From assembly GCA_937124585.1 (NCBI GenBank), contig CAKZKT010000129.1, positions 1-61,002 on the forward strand: 61,002 bases of DNA, written 5' to 3'. Source of the stretch: an uncultured Anaerolineae bacterium (lineage in GTDB: Bacteria > Chloroflexota > Anaerolineae > CG2-30-64-16). Position 1 is the first letter of the stretch. Every line of letters starts with the position of its first letter. This document shows, piece after piece, positions 3,126 through 35,307 of the stretch. The position numbers and the translations under genes are program-made. The notes below the pieces were generated by a model, which saw only the letters and a program-made list of their open reading frames with translations, was not told the origin of the DNA and made no database searches.

Positions 3126-3159
3126 ACGTGCCGGGCATCTCGTGGGGTGCCCGGCACGT
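3126..3159. repeat. 34-bp palindromic element, family A (GC variant)
   Basis: ACGTGCCGGGCA, a 10-nt loop, then TGCCCGGCACGT: perfect 12-bp arms. Compared with the copies at 21.7 kb, one base pair is changed on both arms together (A:T to G:C), so the stem is preserved. It lies between the groESL promoter and the 3' end of the helicase-loader gene, where it may end that upstream transcript's neighbour or act as a REP-like element. Confidence 0.75.
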
Positions 3160-3171
3160 CCGAGAGCGCCC

Positions 3172-3190
3172 ACGTGTCGGGCACTCTACA
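3172..3190. repeat. Truncated family-A palindrome (left arm only)
   Basis: ACGTGTCGGGCA followed by CTCTACA repeats the left arm of the element 46 bp before it. The right arm is missing, and the sequence runs into the stop codon (3186-3188) of the ATPase gene. Confidence 0.5.
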
Positions 3191-4595
3191 AGCCCCGCCC
3201 CTTCCGCGCAATCCGTTTCGCGGCCTGTTGCGTCTCGCTGCCCCGATAGCTGGGCACCGTGATCGCCAACACCGTGCAGCGCGCTTGATCCAACATGCGG
3301 CTGCCCAGGCGCGGCTCTTTTTTCAAGATGTCCTCGATGCTATCCGAGGTGGTGATCACGGTCGGCAGGCGAGCGGCATAGCGGTAATTAAGCAGCTGAA
3401 AGAGCTTTTCGCGTGCCCAGGGAGTGGCACTTTCGGTGCCCAGGTCGTCCAGAATCAGCAGCGGCGTGGTCTTCACCTGCTCGAACAGCCGATCGAGCGG
3501 GGTGGTGCTCTGCGGGCTGAAGGTGGCCCGCAGGTGATCGAGCAGATCGGGGACGACGACGAACATGGGCATGGGCCGGCCCAGCACCCGCTGCTGATTG
3601 GCGATGGCCGCGGCCAGATGCGTCTTGCCGCAGCCGAACCGTCCGGTGATCACCAGCCAGCCAGCCGGCGATTCAGCATAGCGGATGGCCAAGTCTTTGG
3701 CCCGACGCAGGTTCTCGCGCTGCTCCGGGATCTCGAGCTCGGCCGTGCGCAAGGTGAAGGTGTCAAATGTCTGGTCGGCGTGCAGGCTCAGCGTGCTGAG
3801 GCTGGCCGTGCCGCGTTCGACCCCTGGCTGACGAAAATCCGGCGTAAGGATCTCGACCACCCGACTCAGGTCGGGGTCCTCCAGCCGCGAGGCGATGCGG
3901 GGATCCAGCTCGTCGAGCCGCTGATTGGAGGTGATGACGGTCGGCAGACGGCTGTTGTACCGATAGTTCAGGATCTGGAAGAGTTTTTCCTGCGCCCACG
4001 GCGTCGTATTGTGCGCGCCCAGGTCATCGAGGATTAGCAGGGGCGCATCGCGAATCGCCTCCAGACGCTCGTCGTAGGTGACAGTGCTGGTGGGCGCATA
4101 GGTGGCACGCAGGTGATCCAGCAGGTCGGGCACGACGACGAAGAGCGCTTGGCTGCCCAGCATGACGCGAAAGTTGGCGATGGCCGCGGCCAGGTGGGTT
4201 TTTCCGCACCCGTAGCCGCCCAGCAAAACCAGCCAGCCGCGCGGTTCGCGCGCAAAGTCCAGGCTGAGCTCATAGGCGGCGCGCAGGTTGGGCCGCAGAG
4301 ATTCGGGCGCCGCGTTCGGGTCGAAGCTGTCGAAGGTCATCCGGTTCAACGCGCCGAGATTGCTCATCTGCTGCAGGCTGCGCAGGCGTTCAGCGGTCAG
4401 CCGCGCCTGGGTACAGCGACAGGGCACCGTCTTGCTGAAATCCGGATGGCCCGGCGGCACATCGTAGGTCAAGAAGCCACGGCCTTTGCAGATGGGACAC
4501 ACTTCGTCGGCCGGCGGCTGGTGCTGCGACGGCTCGACAGGCCGTTTCTGTTCCGGCTGCGACGGAATGCTCAGAAGATCGCTCAGGCGTTTCAT
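3186..4595 (-). CDS. DnaC/DnaI-type helicase loader with two tandem ATPase domains
   Basis: 469-aa protein that probably loads the DnaB helicase. Residues about 33-61 hold four cysteines (CPICKGRG and VPCRC) resembling a zinc finger. Two AAA+ domains of the DnaC/IstB type follow: the first with [16 protein letters not shown] (about 126) and LLILDDLG (about 186), the second with [17 protein letters not shown] (about 317) and LLILDDLG (about 379). Both keep Walker A, Walker B, a sensor-I-like T(S/T) and an SR arginine finger. Normal loaders are 240-330 aa with one domain, so this is an internal duplication. The ATG at 4595 follows an AAGGGG site; a TTG lies 18 nt upstream. It follows the DnaD-like gene by 14 nt. 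An IstB transposition role is unlikely, as no istA is present. Confidence 0.85.
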
Positions 4596-4609
4596 CGTGA
4601 ATGACCCCT

Positions 4610-5341
4610 TCAATGCTCGATCAGGTCCTCAAACCCTTTGGGCACATAGTAGCGTTCCAGCTCCTCGCTGCTGAGCGGTTCGGCCGCGGTGGGCCGACTC
4701 ACGCCGCGGCCCTGGATGCGCCAGCGTTCCAAAATGGCGCGCACATATTTCCAGTTGCGCCGGTTCATGGCCACCGCTTCCCGAAATGCATCCGCGATCC
4801 AATCCGCAGGATAATGACGCTCGGCGTCGCGCAATTCGTTGGCAATCATCGGGGTCAGCAGGCCGATGTTCTGCTCGTAGAGGACGAAGATGGCCGGCCG
4901 TTCGACCTGAAGCTGGACATCTTCGGCGACGTCGGCCAGCACATCCAGCTCGCCTGCCCGCAGCTTTTCAACCACCTCGCGACCGTTGGCGCTGTTGACC
5001 ATGTACCACTCTTCGCTCACGTCGCCGCGATGTACCGTCAGATGAAGCAGCGCGCCGCGCGCGACCGCACGCTCCAGCGCATCGCGCAGCAGCGTCTCGG
5101 CCACAGGCCGCTCTGCCGAGAGCCCGGCCAGCAAGCGATCGTCTTTCAGCAGCTCGTCAAGGCGCGCATAGCGCAGCGCACCCGTCTTGCGGCCAATCAG
5201 CCAGAAGAGATGCAAGATCACTTTTAGCTCGGCCAGATTGTCAATCAGCGGCAACAGGTCGCTGAAGAACAGATTGGGAATCGGCGTGACGGCCAGTTTG
5301 CCGGCCGGAAAGCCCGGAAAACCCTGCATGGACTCGTTCAT
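4610..5341 (-). CDS. DnaD-like replication initiation protein
   Basis: 243-aa protein with an N-terminal winged-helix-like region (about 20-110, starting [20 protein letters not shown]) and a C-terminal DnaD/DnaB-II module in which [10 protein letters not shown] and YVRAILERW match the YxxxI...W signature of the family. DnaD-family proteins remodel origin DNA and help recruit the loader and replicative helicase. It lies between dnaB and the loader gene, with only 13-14 nt on either side, so the three are almost certainly co-transcribed as a primosome cluster. The ATG at 5341 has a weak ribosome site; an internal Met four codons later is the alternative. Confidence 0.82.
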
Positions 5342-20123: not shown

Positions 20124-20152
20124 TTGCCTCGGCCTCATGACCGTGCTACAAT
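20124..20152 (+). promoter_or_regulatory. Promoter of the GH51 gene
   Basis: TTGCCT (20124-20129), 17-bp spacer, TACAAT (20147-20152) with an extended TGC before the -10. Predicted start near 20159, about 23 nt before the ATG. Confidence 0.8.
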
Positions 20153-20181
20153 CTATCCCATCCGATCTTCAGGAGCTGACC

Positions 20182-21669
20182 ATGCAAACGACCGAAATCC
20201 TCCTTCATACCCGCTTTCAGATCGGCCCGGTTGATCCGCGCGTGTTCGGCGGCTTCCTCGAACACCTGGGCCGGGCCGTCTACGAAGGGGTCTATGACCC
20301 GCAATCTGCACATGCCGACGCCGACGGTTTCCGCACCGACGTCATGCAGGCGCTCCGTCGTCTGCGGATGACGGCCATGCGCTATCCCGGCGGCAACTTC
20401 GCGTCCGGTTACCACTGGCTGGATGGCGTCGGGCCGAAGGCGAACCGGCCGACCGTGCGCGAGCTGGCCTGGCAAAGCATTGAGCCGAATCAGTTCGGCA
20501 CCGATGAGTTCATCCAACTGTCGCGGCGCATGGACTGGATCCCGATGCTCACGGTGAACCTGGGCACCGGCACGCCCGAAGAGGCACGCAATTGGGTGGA
20601 GTACTGCAATTGCCCGCTGGGCACGAAGTATGCCGACCTGCGCGCCGCCAACGGCCACCCGGAGCCGTATGACGTCCGGCTATGGTGCCTGGGCAACGAG
20701 ATGGACGGCCCCTGGCAGCTCGGCCATGTGCCGGCCCAGGAGTACGCGATCCGCGCCCAGCAGGCCGCCAAGATGATGAAAGATGTGGACAAACGCATCG
20801 AGACCGTGGTCTGCGGCTCGTGCACCATCAGCCTGCCGACCTACATGGAATGGGATCGCCAGGTGCTGGAATACATCGGCGATTACGCCGACTACATCAG
20901 CCTGCATCGCTATGTGGGCAATCGCAACGGCGACACGCCCGACTATCTGGCGATCACGAACTCGATTGACCGTCAAATCGAAGAGATGGACGCCACATGT
21001 CGTTTCGTCCAGGCGAAGCGACGCAGCAAGAAACGGCTTTTCCTCTGCTTCGACGAATGGAACGTGTGGTACAAGAACCGGCAGATGGACGGCGCGGGCA
21101 AATTCGCGCCGCATCTGATCGAGGAGGTGTACAACCTGGAAGACGCGCTCGTCGCGGCCGGCTTCCTGAACAGCTTCATCCGCCACGCCGACGTGGTGAA
21201 AATCGCCAACCTGGCGCAGATCGTCAACGTCATCGCGCCCATCCTGACGCAGGGCGACGATCTGCTCGTGCAATCCATCTTCTATCCGTTCGAGATGATG
21301 TCGAAACGGCGCGATGGCGTATCGCTGCGGGTGGTGGTGCAGGGGCCGGATTACGAGGGCCAGACCAACGGCCGGGTGACCTACGTAGACGCCAGCGCCA
21401 TCCTGGCCGCGGGCGCAGTCCACGTCTTCGCAACCAACCGCGCCACCGACGCGGCGGCGGTCGTGCAGGTCAACCTGGCCGACTGCGATATCACGGGCCT
21501 GGCCGATGCTGAGCTGCTCACCGGGCCGAACGCGCAGGCCGCAAACAGCTTCGAACAGCCGAACCTGGTCTGCGCGCAGCCGTTCGCCGACGTGCACATC
21601 GCCGACGGCAAAGCCAGCTTCGAGCTGCCGGCCCTCTCGTTCGCCGCGCTGACGTTCCGACTGGGCTGA
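20182..21669 (+). CDS. Alpha-L-arabinofuranosidase, glycoside hydrolase family 51
   Basis: 495-aa retaining glycosidase that releases L-arabinose from arabinan or arabinoxylan side chains. FGGFLEHLGRAVYEGVYDP (about 22-40), RYPGGNFASGYHW (about 73), the acid/base glutamate in WCLGNEMDGPW (about 171) and the nucleophile glutamate in CFDEWNVWY (about 291) are typical of GH51. No signal peptide is visible, so it acts inside the cell on imported oligosaccharides. The ATG at 20182 has AGGAG 6 nt upstream; the frame is open further 5' without support. It is monocistronic and followed by three palindromes. Confidence 0.95.
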   Translation: MQTTEILLHTRFQIGPVDPRVFGGFLEHLGRAVYEGVYDPQSAHADADGFRTDVMQALRRLRMTAMRYPGGNFASGYHWLDGVGPKANRPTVRELAWQSIEPNQFGTDEFIQLSRRMDWIPMLTVNLGTGTPEEARNWVEYCNCPLGTKYADLRAANGHPEPYDVRLWCLGNEMDGPWQLGHVPAQEYAIRAQQAAKMMKDVDKRIETVVCGSCTISLPTYMEWDRQVLEYIGDYADYISLHRYVGNRNGDTPDYLAITNSIDRQIEEMDATCRFVQAKRRSKKRLFLCFDEWNVWYKNRQMDGAGKFAPHLIEEVYNLEDALVAAGFLNSFIRHADVVKIANLAQIVNVIAPILTQGDDLLVQSIFYPFEMMSKRRDGVSLRVVVQGPDYEGQTNGRVTYVDASAILAAGAVHVFATNRATDAAAVVQVNLADCDITGLADAELLTGPNAQAANSFEQPNLVCAQPFADVHIADGKASFELPALSFAALTFRLG

Positions 21670-21690: not shown

Positions 21691-21814
21691 ACGTGCCAGG
21701 CATCTTGCAGAGTGCCTGGCACGTCGCGCATCCCCACGTGCCAGGCATCTTGTAGAGTGCCTGGCACGTCACGCATCCCCACGTGCCAGGCATCTTGCAG
21801 AGTGCCTGGCACGT
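21691..21814. repeat. Array of three 34-bp palindromes, family A, 45-bp period
   Basis: Copies at 21691-21724, 21736-21769 and 21781-21814. Each has perfect 12-bp arms ACGTGCCAGGCA / TGCCTGGCACGT around a 10-nt loop (TCTTGCAGAG; TCTTGTAGAG in the middle copy). The 11-bp linkers (CGCGCATCCCC, CACGCATCCCC) are nearly identical. The array fills the gap between convergent genes and could act as a bidirectional terminator or REP-type element. The spacers repeat, so this is not CRISPR. Confidence 0.9.
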
Positions 21815-21822
21815 CGCGATAT

Positions 21823-24381
21823 TCAGCGCAGGGGCACGCGCAACTCAGTTGTCGGTGATCCGCTTTCATCCAGAAAATACAACCGGGTCGAGTCGTCCGG
21901 CCGATAGAGAAAAACCTGAAGCGCGGACGGAGCAGCCCCTGCCGGCACCGGCAACGTATGCGTAGTGGTCACGACCATCCCGCTTTGCCACCCCCGGATC
22001 AAATCGCGGCCGCCACTCAGCGCGCGGTCATCCTGGCTGACCCTCTGGCCGGCCGCGTCGAGCAGCCGTGCACTGATGCTGGCATCGGCATCCGGCCGGT
22101 CGAGCAGGCGCCACGAAAGCGTGATGGTGAAGCTGTGGCCTGCGGCCAGGCTGCCCGCGACGACCGGCGCGGCCGCCTGAATGGCCAGCAGCTGCGCCGG
22201 CTCGGGCCGCGTCGCGACGGCAACTTCCTGCACGAACGACGTCGCGCGCACTCGGGGATCGTCCGTCGCCAACCGCAGCCAATAGCGGCCAGCGGTCTCC
22301 GGGCGGGGCAGGGCGAGGGGCAGCACGCTCCCCTCGCCGACCAGCAGCGGCAGCGGCAGCGCAAGCTCGAATGATCGGGGGGCACCTCCCTCGATCGGCT
22401 GCCACACACCGCGCACACGCAGCGGCCGCCCCGGCGCCAGCACGACCTCGCGCTCGGTCGCTGTGGCCAGAATCAGGAAGGCCTGGCCGTCGGCCGTGCT
22501 CCAGAAACGACCGACGACCGTCCCGGCTGCGGCCTGATCCGACAGGAGCCGATAGACCCACGTCGGCCCGAACTCCTGCTCCAGCACCACATCGGGGAGC
22601 GCGGCCAATACCTGACGCAGGGCCGCAGCGCGACCCGGCTGAAATGCCTCCATCACTTGACTGTGAATGATCACGCGGCCGACGCCCAGGCCGGACAACA
22701 ACGCCCGTGAGCGCGCATCGGGAAAATGCGCCAGGGTCAATCCCAGCTCGCGATGGTGCGGCGGCACGAAACCGCTGTAGCCATCTACGGTCGGCTGCCA
22801 GTGGCCGGTCTGGAAGTATTGATAGCGCAGGAGGTTATAGTCGGGCCAGGCCGCTTCCGCAGTGTCGTTCGTCGGGCCGGCCGGAGGGGCCGCCATATCG
22901 GAGCTCAGCGGCAGCTCCACGATGGCGCCGGCCGGGTGGTCGGCCAGCCACGTGGCCAGCGGCGACGCGGTCGGCGGCATCGGCCGGACCGCAAACGTCT
23001 CCATCCCGCCGGCATATTCGGCCAGGATCAAAGGTGCCAGGAGAAATGCCCACGCGACACGCCGCTTTTGCCGGATCGGCTCCCCATTCCTCGCCGCGGA
23101 AAGGGCCTGGATGAGACGCGCGGTGCCCGTTCCTGCCAGCAGCGCCAGCGCCAGGAACGCACTGTTGGCGAACCGGCCCGGCGCGCGGATGGCCGTCATG
23201 CCGGGCAGATGTTCGTAGAGCCAGCCGAACGGCAGCGGTAGTCTGCCACTGTCGGCCGCGGTCAGCTTCAGCTGTGGGCCGAGCGACAGGGTGACGGCGC
23301 TCAACGCCAGGAGTAGCCAGTAGCCCCGGCCGATCTGTGGCCGGCCCGCAGCCGACATAGCGCGTAGCCGGCCCGCGAGCAGACCCAAGGCGGCCAGTGC
23401 CAGGACGATGAAGCCCGGAAAAAGCCCGCCTTCGACCGACGCCAGCCCGGGGATAAGCCGATAAAGCGGGTTGGCGGCCGGTGGCTGCACCCACTCAGCC
23501 AGCGTGGCCGCGCTGCGCAATGCCTCATCCAGCGAACGCTCCAGCCCCAGATCGCTCCGCATCCGCAGATAGGGAATGGCGAACGGCGCGATCAGGATGC
23601 CGGCCAGCACCACCCAGGGGATCAGGGCAAGGAGCGGGAGGCCGCGCGCGGCCGGTCGCCGCGCACGCGGCCTGGCGACCAGGTGCCCTCTCGTCCATGA
23701 CCACAGGCCGACCAGCAGCCGCACAATCACGTAGAGCCCCACCGTCAGCGCCACCTGAAATCCATAGTAGAACGCGGACAGAGTCTGAAATGCCGCGGCC
23801 AGGGCAAAAAGGAAACCATCGCGCGGCCGGCCCGCCGCCCAAAAGCGATCCAGATAGAGCAGGGTCAGCGGCAGCCAGGCGATGCTCAGCAGCTGGAGCT
23901 GGCTCAAATGGCCGAACTGATGCGGCGAGAAAGCATAGATCAGGCCGGCGAGGAAGGCGGACAGCCGGCATCCCGTGACATGCAACGTCAGCAGATAGGC
24001 GCCCATCCCGGCCAGTGGAAAGGCAGCCAGGAAGAACAAATTATAAACGAGCACCGGATTGCCCGTGGCGGCCAGCCACGGGACGGCCAGCGGCGCGATC
24101 GGCCAGAGGATCTCGGACAGCGCCAGCGAGTTCGGCAGAGGCCAGAAGATCGGTGCGTCGAAAAGGGTCGGCGCTGCGATCGGCAGGATGTGCGCCTGCC
24201 AGGCGATGATCCAGGTGTTGAGCGTCGTGTCGGAGCGGTCGTGCAGGCCATCGGCCAGATGGCCGAGCAGCGGCCAGAAAAAGAGAAGCGTCAGGCTGGC
24301 ATAGCCCAGAAACGCTACGCCAGCCTGTCCATTGCGGCGATGCGAGGGCCTCTGGCCGGCTACTTCCACTTGATCGTGCAA
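21823..24381 (-). CDS. Large polytopic membrane protein, possible GT-C-type glycosyltransferase
   Basis: 852 aa. The first 480 residues or so carry about ten hydrophobic segments (for example FLGYASLTLLFFWPLLGHL, LVYNLFFLAAFPLAGMGAYL), and the C-terminal third is soluble and beta-rich with segments such as FALALPLPLLV-like strands. HDRSDTTLNTWIIAW early and AIRAPGRFANSAFLALALL in the middle resemble uncharacterised YfhO/GT-C-like proteins; transfer of sugars from lipid carriers is possible, not shown. The start is uncertain: TTG 24381 or GTG 24369, both inside the upstream gene end (22-bp overlap), which suggests translational coupling. Confidence 0.65.
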   Translation of the reverse strand: MHDQVEVAGQRPSHRRNGQAGVAFLGYASLTLLFFWPLLGHLADGLHDRSDTTLNTWIIAWQAHILPIAAPTLFDAPIFWPLPNSLALSEILWPIAPLAVPWLAATGNPVLVYNLFFLAAFPLAGMGAYLLTLHVTGCRLSAFLAGLIYAFSPHQFGHLSQLQLLSIAWLPLTLLYLDRFWAAGRPRDGFLFALAAAFQTLSAFYYGFQVALTVGLYVIVRLLVGLWSWTRGHLVARPRARRPAARGLPLLALIPWVVLAGILIAPFAIPYLRMRSDLGLERSLDEALRSAATLAEWVQPPAANPLYRLIPGLASVEGGLFPGFIVLALAALGLLAGRLRAMSAAGRPQIGRGYWLLLALSAVTLSLGPQLKLTAADSGRLPLPFGWLYEHLPGMTAIRAPGRFANSAFLALALLAGTGTARLIQALSAARNGEPIRQKRRVAWAFLLAPLILAEYAGGMETFAVRPMPPTASPLATWLADHPAGAIVELPLSSDMAAPPAGPTNDTAEAAWPDYNLLRYQYFQTGHWQPTVDGYSGFVPPHHRELGLTLAHFPDARSRALLSGLGVGRVIIHSQVMEAFQPGRAAALRQVLAALPDVVLEQEFGPTWVYRLLSDQAAAGTVVGRFWSTADGQAFLILATATEREVVLAPGRPLRVRGVWQPIEGGAPRSFELALPLPLLVGEGSVLPLALPRPETAGRYWLRLATDDPRVRATSFVQEVAVATRPEPAQLLAIQAAAPVVAGSLAAGHSFTITLSWRLLDRPDADASISARLLDAAGQRVSQDDRALSGGRDLIRGWQSGMVVTTTHTLPVPAGAAPSALQVFLYRPDDSTRLYFLDESGSPTTELRVPLR

Positions 24382-28307: not shown

Positions 28308-28476
28308 CGTATCCCCCCACGCAATCGGCTGCAATGCTCGCTGACCTGCAGCAGGTAAAAATCGATTTGGCGGCCGGCATACCCACGACATCGTCCTCGA
28401 TCGAAAGGCGCACCTTCTGCCCGCCCCACTCGGCCACCGGGCCGGTCACCGAAAGTTCCACAGGTGCTCCTGTCAT
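28305..28476 (-). pseudogene. Possible small coupled ORF after the ComEC-like gene, frame uncertain
   Basis: An ATG at 28476 overlaps the stop of the upstream hydrolase gene (ATGA) and opens VELSVTGPVAEWGGQKVRLS followed by IEDDVVGMP, a coding-like beta-strand pattern similar in size to the small proteins often found beside ComEC-like hydrolases. The continuation is unclear: in the first frame it runs into low-similarity sequence over the next gene, while another frame reads PPNRFLPAAGQRALQPIAW up to the editing-domain ATG. It may be a short real gene with a frameshift. No family is assigned. Confidence 0.3.
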
Positions 28477-29366
28477 GGAGAAGATGACGCTTTGCGCGCC
28501 GGCCTCACCTCCAGCTGCCGGCCATCGCTGATGACTTCGATCCGGCCATGCCGGTCGGTGCGAAAGATTTCGGCCTGAACAGCGGCCAGTCGCGCCAGCA
28601 CGGCCGGATGCGGATGGCCGAAGCGGTTCTTCGCGCCGACGGAGATGATGGCCACACGCGGCTTCACCGCGGCCAGAAAAGCGGCCGAGGTGGCGCCCTG
28701 GCTGCCGTGGTGGCCGACTTTAATCAGATCGGCCTGCAACGGCAAACCGGCCCGCAGCATGTCGGCCTCTGCCTCGCTCTCTGCGTCGCCGGTGAGCAGC
28801 AGGCTGATCTGGCCATGGTCGAGCCGGAGCACAATGGCGTTGTTGTTGTCGTCGGCCGCAGTGCCGCGCAGTGGCTGCGGCCCAGGGTGGAGCACGGTGA
28901 GCTGCGCCTGGCCGAGCGGGATGCGCATCCCGCGCACAGCAATCGTGCGCGAGATCTGATCGCGAGCCAGCACAGTACGCCAGGCCTCGGCCCACGACGA
29001 GGTGTCGGACAGCGTGGTGTCGAGCACCTGGCTCACCCGATAGCGGTCGAACAGGGGAATCAGGCCGGTGAGGTGATCGCCATCCGGATGGGTGAGCACG
29101 ATCAGATCGAGGCTGCGATCCCAAAACGGCAGCACTGCAGCCAGCTCGTTGAGGAGTGCGATCGGGCTGGGCCCGCCATCTACCAGGATCTGACGGCCAT
29201 CGGGCGTCTGAATCAGGGCCGCGTCGCCCTGGCCCACGTCCAGAAAATAGACGTGCAGCCTGCCATCCGGCAGCCCGCGCAGCGCCAGCCAGGCAACCGC
29301 GGCGGCCAGCGCCAGCACGCCGATCCAGCGCCACCCGGCCATCTGTCGCTTCAGGCCCTGGATCAC
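28473..29366 (-). CDS. ComEC/Rec2-related MBL-fold hydrolase, membrane-anchored
   Basis: 297-aa protein: one N-terminal hydrophobic segment (WIGVLALAAAVAWLALRGL), then a metallo-beta-lactamase domain of the ComEC C-terminal type with YFLDVGQGDAALIQTPDG, VLTHPDGDHLTG (about 90-101), LLTGDAESEAE and VGHHGSQGATS. The domain is thought to act extracellularly on DNA or nucleotides in ComEC; without the competence channel its substrate is unknown. The short ORF that follows overlaps its stop codon. Upstream lie 150 bp with a degenerate family-A palindrome. Confidence 0.85.
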   Translation of the reverse strand: MIQGLKRQMAGWRWIGVLALAAAVAWLALRGLPDGRLHVYFLDVGQGDAALIQTPDGRQILVDGGPSPIALLNELAAVLPFWDRSLDLIVLTHPDGDHLTGLIPLFDRYRVSQVLDTTLSDTSSWAEAWRTVLARDQISRTIAVRGMRIPLGQAQLTVLHPGPQPLRGTAADDNNNAIVLRLDHGQISLLLTGDAESEAEADMLRAGLPLQADLIKVGHHGSQGATSAAFLAAVKPRVAIISVGAKNRFGHPHPAVLARLAAVQAEIFRTDRHGRIEVISDGRQLEVRPARKASSSP

Positions 29367-29470: not shown

Positions 29471-29504
29471 ACGTGCCGGGCATCTTCCAGAGTCCCTGGC
29501 ACGC
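29471..29504. repeat. Degenerate family-A palindrome
   Basis: ACGTGCCGGGCA, loop TCTTCCAGAG, TCCCTGGCACGC: same length and loop as the 34-bp element, with three mismatched pairs between the arms. It lies just after the SH3b lipoprotein gene (minus strand). Confidence 0.65.
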
Positions 29505-29518
29505 TTGAACCGGTCGGC

Positions 29519-30277
29519 TCAATCTTCGACCGGCGTCAGCCAACGGTCATCTCCGGTGCCTTCGGCTGCCCAGCCTTTCACCTCTTCGCCCTCCAGTTGC
29601 CACCATAGATAGCCGTCCTGCCTGACCGGGCCGCCTCGCACGATGAACTGCGTGCCGGGCAACGCCCGCGCCACCGGCGTGCTGCTCGTCCCGGCCGCCT
29701 CGCGCAAGGTGAGCATCTTCCCTTGCTCGGTCGTCACCTGGACGCGGTCGCCCAGCCGGACGGCGCGGTTGACCAGCTTGCCGCCGCCGACGGCTGCGCC
29801 GCTGCTCTTTTCGGCAGAAAGCCACGGCTCATTCACGGTGCCGGCCGCCACCCAGCCCACGCGGCCCGTGCCATCATCCACCAGCCACCAGGTGTAGCCC
29901 TCCGCATCAACCGGCCCCTCTTTCACGCTGACCACAGTGTTGGGCGCCACCCGGCCGAGCAATTTGGCCGTGGTGCTGGGTTTGTCGCGCATGTTGACGC
30001 CGTTGCTGGCCGTCACACGGGCCGACTTGCCAGGCGCCAGGCCGGCCACCGGCGTGGACGTGGCGCTCGGCGTGGCGGTCGGCGGCCGCGTAGGCGTGAC
30101 GGCAGACGTCGGCGTCACGGCGGGCGGCCGCGTGCTCGTGGCTATGCTGGCTCTCGCGGCCGGCGATGGGGTCGCGGCCGGCGTCACCCGAATTTGAAAG
30201 CCTCCACAAGCGAGCATGGCGGGCAAAACCAGGAAGAACGGCAGCAACAACCGCCATAGTACCGATCTTCTTCTCAT
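29519..30277 (-). CDS. SH3b-domain lipoprotein
   Basis: 252 aa. A short signal peptide with lipobox LPAMLAC (Cys about 22) implies lipid anchoring on the cell surface. A Thr/Pro/Ala-rich linker (about 32-75) leads to two bacterial SH3 domains: GVNMRDKPSTTAKLLGRVAP (about 92) with WWLVDDGTGRVGWVAAG, and MLTLREAAGTSSTPVARALP (about 186) with WWQLEGEEVKGWAAEG. Such domains bind peptidoglycan or other wall polymers. No catalytic domain is attached. The ATG at 30277 follows AAAGG; it lies 43 bp after argS on the same strand. Confidence 0.88.
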   Translation of the reverse strand: MRRRSVLWRLLLPFFLVLPAMLACGGFQIRVTPAATPSPAARASIATSTRPPAVTPTSAVTPTRPPTATPSATSTPVAGLAPGKSARVTASNGVNMRDKPSTTAKLLGRVAPNTVVSVKEGPVDAEGYTWWLVDDGTGRVGWVAAGTVNEPWLSAEKSSGAAVGGGKLVNRAVRLGDRVQVTTEQGKMLTLREAAGTSSTPVARALPGTQFIVRGGPVRQDGYLWWQLEGEEVKGWAAEGTGDDRWLTPVED

Positions 30278-35272: not shown

Positions 35273-35307
35273 ACGTGCCAGGCACTCTGCAAGATGTCTG
35301 CGAAGTC
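35273..35307. repeat. Degenerate family-A palindrome, loop inverted
   Basis: The left arm ACGTGCCAGGCA is followed by CTCTGCAAGATG, the reverse complement of the usual loop region, then by TCTGCGAAGTC, which no longer pairs. It is therefore a half or decayed copy in the opposite orientation. Confidence 0.5.

Follow-up and report, generated by a model that had tools for sequence, protein, structure and literature searches.

The window analysed here, a whole stretch of 61,002 nucleotides from an uncultured Anaerolineae bacterium, carries a 34-bp palindrome three times over at positions 21691-21814, and the question raised by this locus is what kind of element the palindrome is and what might have placed it there. 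A preliminary description had reported three exact copies at a 45-bp period, and these were recovered with arms of ACGTGCCAGGCA/TGCCTGGCACGT, exact in 3/3. The copies in the window and the two genes bordering the array are as follows, with gene boundaries taken from our own ORF caller.

21691..21724, no strand assigned, hairpin repeat, copy 1 of triple tandem array (exact arms; fold -16 kcal/mol, z -7.9 on the + strand)
21736..21769, no strand assigned, hairpin repeat, copy 2 of triple array (exact arms)
21781..21814, no strand assigned, hairpin repeat, copy 3 of triple array (exact arms)
3126..3159, no strand assigned, compensated copy, A:T to G:C at stem position 8 (fold -17.5 kcal/mol)
3172..3190, no strand assigned, half copy (left arm, 3172-3183, with 2 mismatches; right arm missing)
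29471..29504, no strand assigned, decayed copy (3 arm mismatches in total; fold -10.4 kcal/mol)
35273..35306, no strand assigned, decayed copy that keeps its left arm but not its right (divergent gap)
20137..21669, plus strand, alpha-L-arabinofuranosidase type gene upstream of the array (PF06964, 148 bits; NF051901, 580 bits, below the cut-off of 625)
21823..24369, minus strand, convergent gene beyond the array (no family match in Pfam or NCBIfam)

Folded as DNA, the window copies gave hairpin z-scores of -7.9 to -3.5; an Rfam search of the window returned 0 matches to known RNA families. The arms of the 3126-3159 copy are ACGTGCCGGGCA...TGCCCGGCACGT, and comparison with the array copies confirmed the proposal that a single pair, here G:C, is altered on both sides. 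The description also held for the half copy at 3172 and the decayed copy at 29471. At 35273, where a copy had been claimed, only the left arm is intact; the right arm is lost, so this is no longer a true palindrome. All copies had been placed at 3' ends or between genes. This holds for the triple array, which two convergent genes flank at distances of 22 and 9 bp, and for the copies at 3126 and 29471, which follow the 3' ends of the minus-strand genes 3186-4595 and 29519-30049 at 27 and 15 bp, respectively; the 35273 copy, in a divergent gap, is no more than intergenic. Two other reading frames of the window were noted. The 475-aa minus-strand frame from 3186 to 4613 contains two IstB/DnaC-like ATPase stretches and is possibly a tandem fusion, and positions 28473-29366 (minus strand) encode a stand-alone ComEC C-terminal metallo-beta-lactamase part (TIGR00361 profile positions 440-663, below cut-off).

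The genome-wide pattern search proposed in the preliminary description was carried out on the assembly that contains the window (G000; 4.83 Mb, 164 contigs). Exact arms gave 238 copies and a relaxed core pattern 311, with 0 for the reversed pattern in each case, and the over-represented 14-mers among those listed for a 356-kb sample all derive from the palindrome. Within the order, represented by ten genomes of one family, the core pattern is found in seven (311, 98, 25, 19, 10, 10 and 4 copies), copy number ranging from 311 down to 0. The further carriers G741 and G742 hold 60 and 57 copies. Of 400 genomes drawn evenly from the phylum, 14 match, all except G000 with a single copy and at about the level of the reversed control. 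A scan of named genomes returned at least 78 stretches, and among the matches listed 77 stretches came from Chloroflexota MAGs (going by record titles, Chloroflexi, Anaerolineae, Thermoflexales, Thermoflexus and Caldilineales) and 1 from a Planctomycetota MAG. Across an order of Anaerolineae-type Chloroflexota the palindrome has tens to hundreds of extragenic copies, which are often locally tandem. A literature search for the palindrome repeat and for RAYT repeats in Anaerolineae found no description; GTAG repeats are known in Chloroflexi (T. roseum) from the available text of PMC3733652, and REP counts are given for Anaerolinea and Ardenticatena in that of PMC12306157.

Three other origins were rejected. 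The exact N10 pattern has 0 matches in viral_contigs, which speaks against a phage origin. DNA uptake words fill genes, and an uptake sequence was ruled out as only 1/40 clusters lies inside a called gene. CRISPR was ruled out by adjacent spacers (~11-21 nt) that are near copies of one another.

The hairpin unit is sharply bounded at 33-35 nt, with conservation ending at the arm ends. The 33-nt form consists of ACGTGCCAGGCA, a 3-bp inner stem, a 3-nt loop and the mirror of this half, and the 34-nt form, common in G000, has a 12-bp outer stem, a 3-bp inner stem, a 3-nt loop and a 1-nt bulge. G000 copies are mostly bulged 34-mers; those flanking two genes for RAYT, a single-tyrosine HUH transposase (loci L111 and L112, below), are 33- or 35-mers. 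GTGCC-A-GGCAC forms a mini-palindrome of 11 nt in each arm, the two arms being inverted 11-nt cores, and 35/88 exact cores in a sample had no exact partner at hairpin distance. Inner stems vary on both sides together (CTT/AAG, CCT/AGG, TCT/AGA), and the outer stem is compensated at pair 2 (C:G to A:T) and pair 8 (A:T to G:C). Covariation was scored on 31 of 38 distinct 33-mers, seven having been dropped by eye as non-homologous, a choice that leans towards structure; in this set 97.6% of cells pair, and 9/15 stem pairs have two-sided changes, against 2.5 in shuffles (0/500 as high) and 0-2 in slid controls. The hairpin is under pressure to stay self-complementary.

A GT[AG]G foot stands within 6 nt of either end in 5/107 copies, ACGT followed by C is found at the 3' end of 36/107, and a strong target-site, foot or flank consensus was sought around the copies without success. 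Within arrays, copies mostly start 45-55 nt apart; copy counts in arrays, at RAYT loci and at sites compared between MAG pairs are minima, the scan being liable to skip weaker copies. Some single G000 copies lie inside an outer imperfect inverted repeat of ~24 nt per side (TGATC..GAAAA..CCGTGTCC; L168:5912 and 13839, L174:14561, L183:7553 and the window near 35273) and may be part of a composite element.

Transposase genes were located in the order with the NF047646 profile, which gave 22 RAYT matches. Palindromes stand on both sides of 2/22, L111 (G405) and L112 (G400 = CG2_30_64_16), from two sister genera; L115 has a copy ~770 bp off, and the other 19/22 have no copy in the locus by the minimum-count scan. 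The L111 and L112 proteins are 89% identical and both genes directly follow mutS. At the same site four readable relatives (G407, G408, G402 and G403) have neither RAYT nor palindrome. The possibility of mutS as a fixed home of RAYT was discarded, with RAYT there in just 2/8 genomes that have a mutS match (the G401 contig ends at the site and the G406 match is ambiguous). No mutS match at E <= 1e-40 was obtained in G000 or G404; G000 is rated 99.8% complete, and eight relatives have a match. A third flanked gene was found in the Planctomycetota MAG S40-2 (L206, G750:C117; also L079), whose RAYT is 49% identical and is flanked by near-identical palindromes, three or four of them in tandem to one side and one to the other by the minimum-count scan. 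This palindrome and RAYT may reflect transfer between phyla, or misbinning. In three genomes other than G000 (loci L111, L112 and L206), a RAYT gene is embedded in a cluster of this palindrome.

HYH, Y120 and N124-P125 are invariant in 19/19 RAYT proteins, all of which matched NF047646 and PF01797 (E <= 0.001). The two closest RAYTs score 75-76 bits on NF047646 (L112 at 74.5), under the cut-off of 80. By sequence, the solved structure closest to these proteins is TnpA-REP 4er8 (E 0.001). A C-terminal HTH (Bac_DnaA_C, HTH_23 or HTH_28) was found in none, PF01797 being the only Pfam family in 19/19 at E <= 0.001.

Individual sites were compared between related MAGs. In one pair, ~92% identical at the site, a copy stands 1 bp past a stop codon in one MAG and there is none in the other, the gap also differing elsewhere between them; in another pair, 90% identical, a copy is common to both at the same site. 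Some copies are therefore retained and others turn over, but none of the MAG-pair sites compared shows a clean insertion marked by a target-site signature.

Elsewhere in the class, the hairpins clustered around RAYT homologues are different ones, and they track the RAYT tree. A homologue (E <= 1e-20) was found in 94/396 class genomes, and 30 loci were analysed, one per genome (L122, L123 and L137-L164). At these loci 30 hairpins lie within 300 bp (1.78/kb) versus 10 beyond 500 bp (0.21/kb; p 1e-10 for the enrichment, tandem copies not being independent). At least one hairpin within 300 bp is present at 16/30 loci, with hairpins on both sides at 8/30 and none at 14/30. The hairpins are of the same build with lineage-specific sequences (GTGACAGTCAC, GTGCGACGCAC, CTTCCGGGAAG and others). 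RAYT tree distance and hairpin-arm similarity correlate with rho -0.59 (n=16; 0/5000 permutations as low), and neighbours in the tree, a quick one with several weak forks, tend towards a shared hairpin type.

A degenerate hairpin pattern matched 95/396 class genomes with up to 137 copies, the reversed control giving 0 among the matches listed. It occurs in 33/94 RAYT-positive versus 62/302 RAYT-negative genomes (OR 2.1, p 0.004, kinship uncontrolled), a weak association at genome level. Among the genomes with 137 copies is G514, where the RAYT gene stands between two of its cognate hairpins. At this locus (L200:442-1230, G514:C213) the RAYT and its two hairpins are bracketed by two diverged copies of the upstream gene's 3' end, which looks as though that end was duplicated on entry of the unit.

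We consider it likely that we are dealing with a short hairpin element of REP/REPIN type, non-autonomous and linked to RAYT. RAYT would bind the hairpin in single-stranded form, probably while replication leaves that strand exposed, and its catalytic tyrosine would nick and join it. Hairpins would in this way be copied or moved into new gaps, with those past gene ends surviving, and tandem arrays could then expand via slippage or recombination. The copies in G000 would now be orphans of a RAYT that was lost, went unassembled or has diverged. The suggestion of REP-like elements mobilised by a RAYT transposase is borne out in part. For the family as a whole it is well supported, by the palindrome-flanked RAYTs of three other genomes and by co-diversification; against it, the RAYT of G000 is elsewhere and the GTAG foot is absent.

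The RAYT search that had been proposed for G000 did find one gene, on contig C102, but this adjoins a different repeat. Its neighbours are GCGGGRACRYGTYCCCGC repeats, of which the genome has 15, and it was ruled out as the cognate transposase. At C102:78145-79100 (L005, L201) some GCGGGRACRYGTYCCCGC repeats fit the GGGGWSAS motif of published TIRtrons, and the locus is a second, separate repeat/transposase pair. A RAYT at least 45% identical was found in just 3/13 genomes with at least four copies (G000, G400, G401, G404, G405, G406, G408, G741, G742, G743, G745, G747 and G750; G744, G746 and G748 were left out as, judged on size and count, they look like G408, G406 and G404 again), and a close RAYT was sought without success in the carriers G000 (311 copies), G741 (60) and G742 (57). 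With a cognate RAYT found in 3/13 carriers but not in G000, mobilisation is therefore something we infer. Several G000 contig ends fall on palindrome copies, so that the assembly may lack a RAYT embedded in such arrays; its loss there is a possibility, not a finding. Copies lie within ~150 bp of the ends of contigs C3, C6, C11, C19, C32, C34 and C41, so arrays seem to break the assembly.

Gene context was counted for 66 copies in 40 clusters, from 20 stretches and the window, using a simple codon-usage ORF caller; the stretches were chosen for holding copies, and expectations were taken from the gaps of the same stretches. Tandem gaps hold 25 clusters, convergent gaps 7, a divergent gap 1 and the inside of a gene 1, with 6 at stretch ends. 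Only 1/33 classed clusters is divergent, where 25.5% of gap bases are (p 0.001), and 7/33 are convergent versus 9.5% of gap bases (p 0.03); the median distance to the nearest 3' ends is 17 bp. The preliminary description would have been wrong if there were only a few copies in the genome with no bias to gene ends, and the 311 copies and their avoidance of divergent gaps dispose of that case.

The same placement, both the 17-bp median and the excess in convergent gaps, would suit a host-functional 3'-end element, a hairpin RNA that ends transcription or protects mRNA 3' ends and whose link to RAYT is old or incidental. Maintenance of the stem by compensatory change and the large hairpin populations without a close RAYT point the same way. 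However, an intrinsic terminator would carry a T-run, and none was found at +1 to +10 after the stem in 26 oriented copies; the terminator proposed in the preliminary description gained no positive support. Bulged 34-mers in tandem gaps have no clear orientation (6 in the direction of transcription, 12 opposite; n=18), and copy number falls from 311 to 0 within ten genomes of one family. REPs are in any case generally located at 3' ends, as set out in the accessible part of PMC3733652, and such placement is typical of them. We regard a host-functional element as unlikely.

Somewhat less likely again is that the copies are MITE-like, terminal or internal repeats of another transposon that RAYT does not move. 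The outer imperfect inverted repeat (~24 nt per side) on some single G000 copies and the absence of a cognate RAYT from G000 would fit this; most copies, however, have no shared flank, conservation ends at the arms, the over-represented 14-mers listed for the 356-kb sample are all palindrome-derived, and RAYTs are palindrome-flanked in three genomes. Protein-binding sites had also been suggested; one for a chromosomal protein, be it a nucleoid protein, a repressor or a replication factor, would explain the near-perfect dyad symmetry and conserved arm letters but gained no positive support and is highly improbable in view of the 3'-end placement, the wide variation in copy number among related genomes and compensated inner-stem changes that a double-strand site does not obviously need.

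The RAYT-linked hairpin element was compared with known systems. REPs are described as tagged at one end, with GTAG or CGTC, and as lying near 3' ends, the GTAG kind being RAYT-linked (PMC3733652, available part), and REPINs as inverted doublets with compensated stems (PMC3116915, available part). The palindrome shares with REPs a length of 20-40 nt, many extragenic copies, a position downstream of genes and avoidance of divergent gaps. As far as the accessible text of PMC3116915, PMC6006769 and PMC3733652 describes the REP/REPIN and RAYT system of Pseudomonas fluorescens (GI-GIII), both consist of many short extragenic palindromes near 3' ends, form tandem clusters with compensatory hairpin changes, and have a RAYT inside its own repeat cluster with repeats that co-diversify with it; the single cores and doublets of that system may have their counterpart in the unpartnered and paired 11-nt cores here. 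The palindrome here differs from classical REPs in having no GT[AG]G foot and a near-perfect 15-bp stem with a 3-5-nt loop. Its unit is 33-35 nt, whereas the first residues of the two 16-mers of the P. fluorescens GI doublet are given as 71 bp apart in the text available; its arms each contain an 11-nt mini-palindrome, and no close RAYT was found in most carriers. CGTC-tagged REPs are likewise short intergenic palindromes (Di Nocera 2013), and CGTC is present at some copies here (arm end ACGT + C), but just 36/107 have ACGT then C; CGTC REPs are reported, in the part of that paper available, without a flanking transposase, and the palindrome has one in three genomes.

TIRtrons (Di Nocera 2013; subclass 2.1, PMC6006769) resemble the present loci in having a RAYT-like gene between long non-GTAG inverted repeats, and some TIRs are double palindromic and form repeat families, as here, according to the available portions of these sources. 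The same portion of PMC6006769 reports for RAYT subclass 2.1 no REP-like neighbours by the GT[AG]G rule and manual inspection, and takes the subclass as probably TIRYTs, its 20 TIRYT examples all having an HTH domain; the NHYH and Y-I-H-x-N-P motifs of the subclass, as given there, are alike to those found here. Unlike TIRYTs, the proteins here have no detected C-terminal HTH (19/19); GGGGWSAS is absent from the palindrome consensus; and TIR families are described as moderately abundant, against hundreds of copies here. For lack of the GT[AG]G foot the repeat was therefore not filed as a classical REP, and for lack of the HTH the protein was not filed as a TIRYT. The palindrome and RAYT are best called a pair that behaves like RAYT and REPIN, distinct from both classical REP and TIRYT.

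A wider reading is offered tentatively, as one that may well prove too broad. Anaerolineae would have a class-wide, footless kind of REPIN, made of 33-nt hairpins with mini-palindromic arms, each lineage's hairpin being matched to its own RAYT of one short HTH-less clade; the pair would cross phyla, and large hairpin populations would outlive the transposase, possibly via host takeover as gene-end elements. A RAYT clade with subclass 2.1-like motifs and no detected HTH has clear cognate hairpins that track its tree. Its matched and mismatched protein/DNA pairs form a natural series for learning how RAYT recognises a hairpin that has no GTAG to guide it, and the system allows asking whether repeat populations outlast their transposase.

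Palindrome copies were also observed, together with a C25-peptidase gene, in a 9.5-kb segment that is 92.7% identical in genomes of two different classes, at the following loci.

L194 / L202-L203, G238, C1 ~847151-856616
L195 / L204-L205, G325, C5

One end of the shared segment coincides with a palindrome copy. These observations suggest horizontal transfer carrying the repeat.
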